Origin: an uncultured Dehalococcoidia bacterium
GTDB taxonomy: Bacteria > Chloroflexota > Dehalococcoidia > Lucifugimonadales > Lucifugimonadaceae
Assembly: GCA_951812795.1 (NCBI GenBank)
Contig: OX638325.1
Coordinates: forward strand, 1,760,277 to 1,824,276
Length of the DNA stretch: 64,000 nt
Direction: 5' to 3'
In this document: in pieces, positions 957 through 57,583 of the stretch
How positions within the stretch are numbered: the stretch's first letter is position 1
Layout: each line of letters opens with the position of its first letter
Position numbers and translations under genes: made by a program
Notes under the pieces: generated by a model
What the model was told of the DNA's origin: nothing
The model's database searches: none
Seen by the model: only the letters and a program-made list of their open reading frames with translations

Positions 957-3461
957 TCAATTCTCGACGCCTTCGCAGTCGGGCAAATTGAGCTGGCGCA
1001 AGTCGGTGTGGAATAGTGGTTTCGGTAACTGGGGTAGGCAACCGGACAGGAAGTTGAATCTCAGGAAGAGGTCAGACAACTCAGTCAGGTTACCCAACTC
1101 TGCGGGGACCTGTCCGGTGAACGCGTTGGCGTCAAGATGGAGCGCCGTCAAAGAAACCAGTTCCCCTAACCAGATCGGTATCGTTCCGCCGAAATCATTG
1201 GTCCCGACATCGAACACACGCAACACAGCGAGATTACGCATCGCATCAGGTAATTCGCCTTCAAGCTGATTGTGGTTCAACCTAAGCTCGATCAGATTTT
1301 CCAGATCCCCGATTTCGGCGGGCAATTCGCCGGAGAGCAGGTTTGCGCTCAAATCGAGTTCGATGAGAGCGTCTAGGTTCCCGAATTCGGCCGGGACCTC
1401 ACCGACCAGACGGTTGTTGGAGAGGATCATATTTGTCAGGTTAGTTAGACCGCCCAATGCCGACGGTAGGTTTCCACTTAAGCCGTTCCTGCTTAAGTTG
1501 AGCGTCGTCAATTTGTTCAGGTTCGACAACTCAGGCGGGATAGGACCGGTGAGATCATTGTTGTTGACTATCAGCGCCCTCAGGTTAGCCAAGTCGTTCA
1601 ATTGAGAGGGAATTTCGCCAGTCAACGCATTCTCGCCGAGGTCCAAGATCATCAGATTGGTCAGATCGCGCAGTTCGGGCGGGATCTGACCTGACAGCCG
1701 GTTATCGCCCAGATTCAATTCCTCCAGCTCCGTCAAGGATGCAAGCTCTGTCGGGATCGGGCCTTCAAAATCGTTCGCGTTGAGATGTATCACCTGCAGG
1801 CCGGTCAGTTGCCCCAAGGATTTGGGTATCTTTGCTTCGATCGCGAGGTCGACCAACTTTAGCGCCGTTACGCGAGTGGGTGTTCCGCCGATTCCCACGC
1901 CGAGCCAGGTGTCGATCGGCTGCTCCGCCGACCAGTCGAGAATCTCGGTTCCATTGAGCGGTTCAATCAGTTGAAGCAACACTTCGCAATCGATGACGAG
2001 TTCCGGCGAGTAGACGGCAGCAGGCACGGCGATGCCGTTGGAACAGGGACCGTCTCCCGGGACTGAAGCGGGGCCACAAGCGATCAATCCCAACTCATCG
2101 AAATCATTCAATTCGACCCGGTCGAGGCCGATCGGAATGCAACCCGTCAGGTTGTTACCGTCTATGTGGAACGATTTGAGATTCGTCAATCCGGCCAGTT
2201 CCACGGGAATTTCGCCCGTCAACTGATTGTCTTCGAGGTTCAAAGTTTCTAGATTGACCAGTTCGCCGAAACTAGCTGGAATTTCGCCGGACAACTGGTT
2301 CGAACTTAGATCGAGATGTCGCAAAGGCGTGTTGTGGCCCAGCGACTCCGGAATCTCGCCGGACAGCTGGTTTCCGTCAAGCTGTAATGCCTCGATCGAA
2401 AGTAAGTCCCCCAAGGTCGAAGGTATAGCTCCGTTGAGTTGATTGGTGTGCAGCAAGATCTGTTTTGCGTTCGAGAGAAGTCCGAGTTCGAGCGGAATCT
2501 CTCCGAGCAGTTCGTTCTCCGAAAGATCCAAGACCACCAGATTGGAGAGCCGACTCAAATTCGGTGGAATCTCGCCCGTGATTTGGTTACCGGACATGGA
2601 CAGCTCGGCCAGGGATTCGAGGAAACCGAGATCGCCAGGGATCTCACCGGTCAGATCGTTATCGCTCAGACACAGGCGCTCCAACTTGATCAGCTCGGCC
2701 AATTCGGCAGGCAACCTGCCCGAGAGGAGGTTTCCGCAGAGTTCTAATGCAGTCAACGCGTCGAGTTCGCCCACAACTGTCGGGATTTGTCCTGCGAGAC
2801 CACGGTTGAGAAGCGATAGCTTGGTGACGCGGCTGGGCGACCCGCTTACCTCCACGCCTTCCCAATCGCGGATGGAGATTTCCACCGACCAATTCAACAG
2901 AACATTTCCCGCGAGTTCGTCGGCAGCCGAGAGCAGTGCTTGACAGTCCGAGACCAAGGCCGGGTTTTCCTCGGCATCGGGAACAGCGACGCCGTTCGCG
3001 CAGGGGATGATCGGTCCTTGATCCGTTTCGACATCTGGAGGATCAGGCTGAGCGGTAGGCGTCAGCGTCGCGGTCGGTTCCGGCGTCGCGGTTGATGTCG
3101 GTACGGTCGTCGCGGTCGGCTGCGGTGTCGCTGACGGAGTCGGCACCGTTGTTCCCGTTGGAACCGCCGTCGCGGTCGGTTCCGGTGTCGAAGTTGGCAG
3201 CGTAGTTGCGGTTGGGACCTGTGTCGCCGTGGGTTCGGGCGTGTTCGTTGGATTGGTAGTTGCTGTAGGCCTTGGGGTAGCCGTTGAGGTACTGGTGGCG
3301 ATTGGCCTCGCGGTCGGTGTGGTCGCGAAGACCACATCCATTCTCGGTGTTGGGGTCGCAGTTTCGCTCGCGCAACCGATGATCGGAACCGCCACACCCA
3401 CCACGACCATGGTGACGATCGCGGCATATGACTTCGCCGGTTTCCAATGTGAAGGGAGCAT
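957..3461 (-). CDS. Leucine-rich repeat lipoprotein with two LRR modules
   Basis: An 834-residue predicted surface lipoprotein. Residues 1-30 form a signal peptide ending in a lipobox (IIGC, Cys30). A Thr/Pro-rich linker of repeating PTxTxxPTxT units spans about 33-145. Two similar modules follow: each opens with a C-x-NG-x-AVP segment, a DC-LL segment and a W-GV segment, then runs into plant-type repeats of the form LxxLxLxxNxLxGxIPxxLGxL. Module 1 starts near residue 152 and module 2 near 478, which points to internal duplication. The linker probably spans the cell envelope and presents the repeats outside, for protein or glycan binding; that role is inferred. The short reading frames on the opposite strand are shadows of the repeat composition. 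Confidence 0.9.
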   Translation of the reverse strand: MLPSHWKPAKSYAAIVTMVVVGVAVPIIGCASETATPTPRMDVVFATTPTARPIATSTSTATPRPTATTNPTNTPEPTATQVPTATTLPTSTPEPTATAVPTGTTVPTPSATPQPTATTVPTSTATPEPTATLTPTAQPDPPDVETDQGPIIPCANGVAVPDAEENPALVSDCQALLSAADELAGNVLLNWSVEISIRDWEGVEVSGSPSRVTKLSLLNRGLAGQIPTVVGELDALTALELCGNLLSGRLPAELAELIKLERLCLSDNDLTGEIPGDLGFLESLAELSMSGNQITGEIPPNLSRLSNLVVLDLSENELLGEIPLELGLLSNAKQILLHTNQLNGAIPSTLGDLLSIEALQLDGNQLSGEIPESLGHNTPLRHLDLSSNQLSGEIPASFGELVNLETLNLEDNQLTGEIPVELAGLTNLKSFHIDGNNLTGCIPIGLDRVELNDFDELGLIACGPASVPGDGPCSNGIAVPAAVYSPELVIDCEVLLQLIEPLNGTEILDWSAEQPIDTWLGVGIGGTPTRVTALKLVDLAIEAKIPKSLGQLTGLQVIHLNANDFEGPIPTELASLTELEELNLGDNRLSGQIPPELRDLTNLMILDLGENALTGEIPSQLNDLANLRALIVNNNDLTGPIPPELSNLNKLTTLNLSRNGLSGNLPSALGGLTNLTNMILSNNRLVGEVPAEFGNLDALIELDLSANLLSGELPAEIGDLENLIELRLNHNQLEGELPDAMRNLAVLRVFDVGTNDFGGTIPIWLGELVSLTALHLDANAFTGQVPAELGNLTELSDLFLRFNFLSGCLPQLPKPLFHTDLRQLNLPDCEGVEN

Positions 3462-32387: not shown

Positions 32388-33068
32388 CTACGCGCCAATC
32401 TCCGCCCGCGACTCCAACGAGTGTGCCAGCGTTGCATCATCTGCATATTCAATATCAGTCCCTGACGGCAGACCTCTTGCTAGGCGGGTTACTTTGATGC
32501 CGGCGGGAGAGATGGCGCGTTGAAGATACATGGCGGTCGCTTCACCGTCGAGGTTGGTGTTGGTTGCGACGATCACTTCGGTTACCGTCTGATCGGCGGT
32601 GTTGGCTTGGAGGCGCTGGAGCAGCTCTTTGATCTTGAGGTCGGAAGCAGCGATGCCGGAGGTCGGTGAGATGGCGCCGTGAAGCACGTGATAAAGGCCG
32701 GTGTAGGCGCGCGTGCGCTCGAAGGCGGTGACATCGAGGGGTTCCTCGACGACGCAGATCGTGGACCGGTCACGGTTGGGGTCGGTGCAGATGTGGCAGG
32801 TGGTCGCCTCGGTGATGTCGGCGCAAGTCTCGCATAGCTTGATGCGCTGTTTGACGCCGGTGATCGCTTCCGAGAGCTCGGCGGCTTCGGCCTCGGGCAT
32901 GCGTACGAGATGGTAGGCGAGACGTTGCGCGGATTTGGGTCCGATGCCGGGAAGTCGCCGAAAAGCTTCGATGACGCGGGCGACGGGCGCCGCAACGCCG
33001 CGGGGCGCATCGGTGCGAGGTGCTACGGGCGAAACCGGGCGTGGAGGGTCGGGTCGGAAGGCGGCCAT
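32388..33068 (-). CDS. recR: Recombination protein RecR
   Basis: A 226-residue RecR. The helix-hairpin-helix segment (FRRLPGIGPKSAQRLAYHL), the four-cysteine zinc finger (CETCADI-TEATTCHIC) and the Toprim domain (ICVVEEPLDVTAFE, EVIVATNTNLDGEATAMYL) are all present. About 25 residues of Pro/Arg/Ala-rich sequence precede the usual start; a downstream start is possible. It follows ybaB by 35 bases on the same strand, the classic ybaB-recR pair. RecR acts with RecO in loading RecA. Confidence 0.96.
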   Translation of the reverse strand: MAAFRPDPPRPVSPVAPRTDAPRGVAAPVARVIEAFRRLPGIGPKSAQRLAYHLVRMPEAEAAELSEAITGVKQRIKLCETCADITEATTCHICTDPNRDRSTICVVEEPLDVTAFERTRAYTGLYHVLHGAISPTSGIAASDLKIKELLQRLQANTADQTVTEVIVATNTNLDGEATAMYLQRAISPAGIKVTRLARGLPSGTDIEYADDATLAHSLESRAEIGA

Positions 33069-57100: not shown

Positions 57101-57583
57101 ATGTCCACAAACGACGCTGTAGCCTACCGTTCCCGTGTGAAATTGGAGAGGATTAAAGGTCCGTTCCGGATTGCGCACCTGCCGATCGACGGCCCGGTGA
57201 AGTTCGGCGTTCACTCCGAAGTCGCCGAGCACTACGGAGTCAGCCCGGACATCTCAGAGCCACACGCCACGACGTTGGACTACATCGTGGCCGCGACAAG
57301 CGGTTGAATGACGGGAACGTTTGGCGGCGCCCTTGAGGCGCGCGGTATCCCGGCTGGCGAAGGCTACCTCGAATCCGACACCATCGGAGAAATCGAGAAG
57401 GAAGGCAACGTCCTAGTCATCAAGCGCATCCACATCACCTACAAGTTGAAGATCGATCCGGAGTTGCTGGAGGAGAAGAGGGATGCGATCGATCGAGTGA
57501 TGCGCGTGCACCCCAACTCATGCCCGGTCTATCGGAGCATTTCGGGAAGTATCGGGATTACGGCGGAGTTGGAGTTGGTTTGA
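57101..57583 (+). CDS. OsmC-family protein with in-frame UGA at the catalytic Cys (candidate selenoprotein)
   Basis: One continuous frame of 161 codons containing a single internal TGA at 57305-57307 (codon 69). The part before it ends TTLDYIVAATSG and the part after begins MTGTFGGALEARGIP; together they read as an OsmC/YhfA-like domain in which the segment VLMAAGGC of E. coli YhfA aligns with IVAATSG-UGA. The UGA thus stands exactly at the first catalytic cysteine. The second conserved cysteine is present (HPNSCPVYRSI). OsmC-like selenoproteins have been reported from marine metagenomes. A GC-rich hairpin follows the UGA. ATG 57101 is used (TTG 57095 possible). Alternatives are a nonsense pseudogene or restart at ATG 57308. 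No Sec machinery genes are in this window. Confidence 0.75.
57312..57352 (+). promoter_or_regulatory. Candidate bacterial SECIS-like hairpin
   Basis: Starting five bases after the in-frame UGA, CGGGA (57312-57316) can pair with TCCCG (57348-57352), and inside it GCGCC (57327-57331) pairs with GGCGC (57337-57341) around a CTTGA loop. The apical loop lies 24 bases after the UGA, within the usual bacterial SECIS range. The loop G is not in the first two positions, which departs from the common consensus, so this is a tentative call. Confidence 0.4.

Follow-up and report, generated by a model that had tools for sequence, protein, structure and literature searches.

An OsmC-like gene with an in-frame TGA

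The window analysed here, i.e. the whole stretch of 64,000 nucleotides of DNA, contains at 57101..57583 (+) a reading frame that is open except for a TGA at codon 69 (57305..57307, +), which raises the question of whether this codon ends the protein or is read as selenocysteine (Sec). The sequence-only reading had favoured Sec, at the catalytic position of an OsmC-family protein. Re-reading of the frame bore out that this TGA is the sole break before the terminal stop, which is itself a TGA (57581..57583, +). Reading through codon 69 gives a protein of 160 residues, which, with Cys put for Sec, matched the Pfam OsmC family (PF02566) with an E-value of 1.5e-9 and 38.6 bits (gathering cut-off 27.5). 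The same protein scored 19.6 bits against the NCBIfam OsmC model TIGR03562 (curated cut-off 85.8) and 21.1 bits against the SACOL1771 peroxiredoxin model TIGR03563 (curated cut-off 166.15). Because these scores are far under both subfamily cut-offs, we regard the window protein as a divergent OsmC protein.

When the in-frame TGA codons of the entire window were screened for coding signal on both sides, 57305 came out as one of the two leading candidates; the one at 32667 looks like composition bias. The automatic list of open reading frames contains only 57308-57583, as an ORF of 91 residues whose start codon is the AUG adjacent to the UGA. As the gene is thus split and only this second-half fragment is listed, the real gene would be missed by standard annotation. 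In the gene neighbourhoods of the family, no neighbour is kept outside small groups of relatives, and these neighbourhoods provide no operon clue.

The AlphaFold model of the product has a pLDDT of 86.6, and in this model the active-site helix comprises residues 58-80. Among the matches listed by Foldseek, the best are OsmC/Ohr structures. The fold as well as the catalytic and resolving positions are common to the window protein and the Ohr/OsmC reductases (E. coli OsmC, 1nye; T. thermophilus, 1ukk; T. acidophilum, 2onf); by contrast, the window protein has Sec in place of Cys, and identity is 9-20% among the structural matches listed. Consistent with the claim that the TGA falls at the conserved peroxidatic Cys, 29 of the 30 OsmC paralogues of the class without a TGA have Cys in the column of residue 69. 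Moreover, residue 69 matches the conserved Cys of solved OsmC proteins, and together Sec69 and C141 correspond to the two redox Cys residues of OsmC proteins. C141 (codon at 57521..57523, +), the second conserved Cys that had been described as intact, is invariant in the aligned family and, as it lines up with the second Cys in OsmC/Ohr proteins, is the predicted resolving Cys. The residues E43-H44-Y45, which are conserved in the window subfamily, are not shared by most paralogues of the class at the aligned positions. In total, the homologous loci described below, the AlphaFold model and the Foldseek matches identify the gene as a selenoprotein gene of the OsmC superfamily.

Conservation of the TGA codon among homologues

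We collected 118 homologous loci, some of which are the same gene fetched twice; codon 69 is TGA in 116 of these, TGC in one and TGG in one, and with duplicates removed the counts are 108, 1 and 1 of 110. The TGA is kept down to ~36% identity. Scanning 84,980 species genomes yielded 74 homologues, and the aligned codon is TGA in all 74. The pattern used in the homologue search was built with Cys codons at the Sec site and, therefore, had no bias toward TGA. In a sample of Dehalococcoidia, the gene was found in 29 of 294 genomes, and the clear matches each have exactly one TGA. A profile search of a phylum sample of 400 genomes gave two exceptions: L168 has a natural Cys codon at the site, and L167 has TGG. 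The closest named relative, the SAR202 MAG L025, encodes a protein that is 99% identical and also has the TGA, as do five more MAGs with proteins that are 86-92% identical; thus, it is very unlikely that the TGA arose by misassembly.

The sequence-only reading took other disruptions of the gene in close relatives as a sign of a pseudogene. The frames are otherwise intact except in three relatives. In L167, where the Sec codon is TGG, a frameshift close to the N-terminus has put that end of the protein into a different frame; the genome with L167 has selA, and this locus is a decaying copy. L047 has an extra in-frame TAA at +28 after the Sec codon and L096 an extra in-frame TAG at +21. We rejected both as second Sec sites because neither is TGA, and they are probably draft errors or decay.

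The family is found in Chloroflexota, Actinomycetota (Rubrobacteraceae, Acidimicrobiia, Solirubrobacterales and Pseudonocardiaceae), Acidobacteriota, Myxococcota, one Poribacteria MAG and one MAG labelled Nitrospinota; many carriers are MAGs, and individual phylum assignments may be in error. A tree built from the OsmC proteins of the class groups the window family, with strong support, as a single clade that sits on a long branch. L168 nests within the Sec clade, which suggests a reversion from Sec to Cys; L168 is itself long-branched and its placement is unsure.

selA is present in 27 of the 29 class carriers, the two genomes without it being 81% and 86% complete, as well as in 32 of 33 further carrier genomes of the phylum sample. 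selA is common in the class anyway and, therefore, its co-occurrence with the gene is by itself modest support. Finally, of 20 further carrier genomes from several phyla, 17 have a tRNA-Sec that scores over the Rfam cut-off.

The SECIS-like hairpin and the decoding of UGA

The sequence-only reading also described a nested GC-rich hairpin 5-45 bases 3' of the UGA, and we found the corresponding pairs. The full pairing of this SECIS-like hairpin covers 57312..57352 (+) and is supported by the RNA fold, synonymous constraint and a low-energy rank; within it, the apical stem-loop GCGCC-CUUGA-GGCGC lies at 57327..57341 (+), with a loop that includes a G. Among 107 TGA genes, the entropy ratio of synonymous codons is 0.39-0.51 at codons +7, +8, +9, +11 and +12 after the UGA, while it is ~0.8-1.1 at most neighbouring codons; codons +1 and +2 are constrained to a lesser degree. 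The folding energy of the whole 51-nt region is mildly unusual (mean z -0.79 versus -0.20 to -0.55 in control stretches). Because this effect was weak relative to codon shuffles, we added a local hairpin test on 51 representatives with less than 80% identity. In this test, the 21-nt stretch from codon +7 had a stability rank among codon-matched shuffles of 0.088, compared with a control mean of 0.478 (sd 0.049). Such behaviour would be expected of a bacterial SECIS element, for which the definition in PMC1088965 was used. An Rfam scan of the gene region returned no SECIS match and one chance match only.

The apical design of most family members is GCGCGCU-GGA-AGCGCGC, while that of the SAR202-type genes including the window gene is GCC-CUUGA-GGC plus flanking pairs. 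Only about one in two of the SAR202-type genes retains the pair 57328-57340 and, therefore, the exact outer stem is uncertain. In L094, from an actinomycete, the SAR202-type register is kept with U-A pairs replacing C-G. A stricter bacterial SECIS consensus has a conserved G within the first two bases of the apical loop; the hairpin of most relatives can be drawn with a GGA loop, and the CUUGA loop of the window gene has its G at the fourth base. By clade, the apical loop reads CUUGA in SAR202-type genes, CUGGA in most others and CUCGA in L094, and it is possible that these clade-specific loops reflect co-evolution with SelB.

The host genome, a single contig of 2.61 Mb that is 94% complete, encodes the complete set of Sec genes for which a search had been proposed: selA (520 bits), selB (325 bits) and selD (366 bits), all well over their curated cut-offs, and a tRNA-Sec (67.8 bits). 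selD (L020 positions 1399-2448, minus strand) has its own in-frame TGA, in the context CAG-U-AGK, followed by the predicted hairpin CGCCCA-GGUUU-UGGGCG. Thus, the Sec system has at least one other client besides the OsmC-like gene. The two are selenoprotein genes of the same genome; however, SelD is an unrelated protein, and its predicted loop is GGUUU rather than CUUGA.

If an altered genetic code or a dedicated tRNA led to the insertion of a standard amino acid such as Trp or Cys at UGA, the frame would likewise stay open, and the one relative with TGG could be read as pointing to Trp. However, the OsmC-like gene itself ends with TGA, which is also the most frequent terminal stop among the family genes, indicating that TGA still terminates in the host genome; the tRNA with the anticodon UCA is called as tRNA-Sec by both Rfam and ARAGORN; the aligned paralogues without TGA have Cys and not Trp in all but one case; and the TGG copy is frame-broken. 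We consider decoding as a standard amino acid highly improbable. To the same small degree, we credit termination at the UGA followed by a restart at the adjacent AUG (57308), which would yield an N-terminal peptide and a C-terminal peptide of 91 residues. In the window gene, as in other SAR202-type genes, the codon adjoining the UGA on its 3' side is AUG, and the ORF list gives the 91-residue ORF; however, the next codon is Leu, not AUG, in ~75% of the family members, a split within the active-site helix would part the fold, and the SECIS constraint and the Sec machinery would be left unexplained. Least probable of all is that the OsmC gene is dead or misread, its TGA being a nonsense mutation or a sequencing or assembly error. 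This is the first impression given by a lone TGA in an otherwise ordinary gene, and the truly frame-broken L167 with its TGG is a precedent; against this reading stand the TGA at the exact codon in independent genomes of several phyla, the conservation of the frame past the TGA and the selection of downstream synonymous codons for the hairpin.

Altogether, the Sec machinery, the TGA in nearly all homologous loci and the constraint on the hairpin support the original proposal that the UGA is read as Sec, and we are very confident that the gene encodes a true selenoprotein with an OsmC fold, in which UGA-69 is read as Sec via the SECIS. The incorporation of Sec as such we infer from the conservation of the UGA and the presence of the Sec machinery.

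Relation to other OsmC-like selenoproteins and proposed chemistry

OsmC-like selenoproteins have, as the sequence-only reading stated, been reported from marine metagenomes: a survey of the Sargasso Sea in 2005 described three sequences with the motif UxxT (PMC1088965), and the GOS survey found five OsmC-like Sec sequences (PMC2398784). Reviews from 2022 and 2026 still list one OsmC-like family, assigned to COG1765 or PF02566, with the motif UxxT (PMC9312934, PMC13188914). AACY01145085, MBR72571.1 and MCS5647933.1 are OsmC-like examples from the literature. Thus, OsmC-like selenoproteins as a kind are already known. The published family and the window subfamily have in common the OsmC superfamily, a UGA at the redox position, a SECIS downstream and an occurrence in marine bacteria. 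We set the two apart by the published motif and description rather than by sequence comparison, and on this basis they differ in three respects. First, Cys homologues outnumber Sec homologues in the published family, while the window subfamily has one Cys orthologue in 118 loci. Second, the motif of the window subfamily is U-[ML]-T-G-T or U-L-L-G-T with no Thr at +3, and the window protein (U-M-T-G-T) accordingly lacks a Thr three residues after Sec. Third, unlike the published family, the window subfamily extends to Actinomycetota and Acidobacteriota. Judged by title and abstract, none of the papers found that combine SAR202 or Rubrobacter with selenoproteins or selenocysteine concerns the window protein.

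At least three further OsmC groups of the class have a TGA in the same catalytic column, i.e. L171-L174, L175, and L176 and L177; the SECIS elements of these groups are predicted by folding alone. L171, L172, L173 and L174 have GTUTxxT or GSUTAIT and, in the tree, are intermixed with Cys genes from their own group. The divergent genes L175, L176 and L177 have VGULSV, GLUTLS and LFUEMT, respectively, and L177 (UEMT) is the only OsmC TGA gene observed that fits the published UxxT. The presence of TGA at the same column in several OsmC groups suggests that the catalytic position is prone to exchange between Sec and Cys. Unlike these other groups, the window subfamily is almost fixed for Sec.

The present analysis adds a subfamily that is nearly obligately Sec-containing, broadly distributed and deeply separated from Cys-containing OsmC proteins, together with a SECIS apical loop that differs by clade and a TGA at the same column in other OsmC subfamilies of the class. 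More tentatively, and with somewhat less than even confidence, we propose that the window gene belongs to an undescribed OsmC subfamily apart from the UxxT family, which has been Sec-dependent since its origin, is essentially Sec-locked in about six phyla, has switched its loop by clade, perhaps together with SelB, and represents one of several independent gains of a catalytic Sec among OsmC lineages.

Ohr/OsmC proteins reduce hydroperoxides, and this biochemistry is the basis for the reaction that we propose for Sec69 and Cys141 with a dithiol reductant. SelB and tRNA-Sec would decode the UGA at codon 69 as Sec, directed by the SECIS hairpin, of which the predicted apical stem lies ~20-34 nt 3' of the UGA within the coding sequence. 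The product would adopt the OsmC fold, in which Sec69 would serve as the peroxidatic residue and Cys141 as the resolving one. The selenolate would attack an organic or lipid hydroperoxide, a Sec69-Cys141 selenylsulphide would then form, and this selenylsulphide would be recycled by a dithiol, possibly of the lipoyl type as in Ohr/OsmC proteins. By analogy with these enzymes, we favour a specific role as a hydroperoxide reductase, with rather less assurance than we have in the selenoprotein itself.

With these findings, a family known in the literature consulted from a few metagenome sequences becomes a defined, nearly obligate Sec subfamily. Its carriers include bacteria with complete chromosomes (the SAR202-type bacterium of the window and 'Candidatus Lucifugimonas marina') as well as the named actinomycete strain Qaidamihabitans albus YIM S01255 and, therefore, the chemistry of the subfamily is open to testing. 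Moreover, reversion to Cys is almost absent, which suggests a reaction that depends on selenium.
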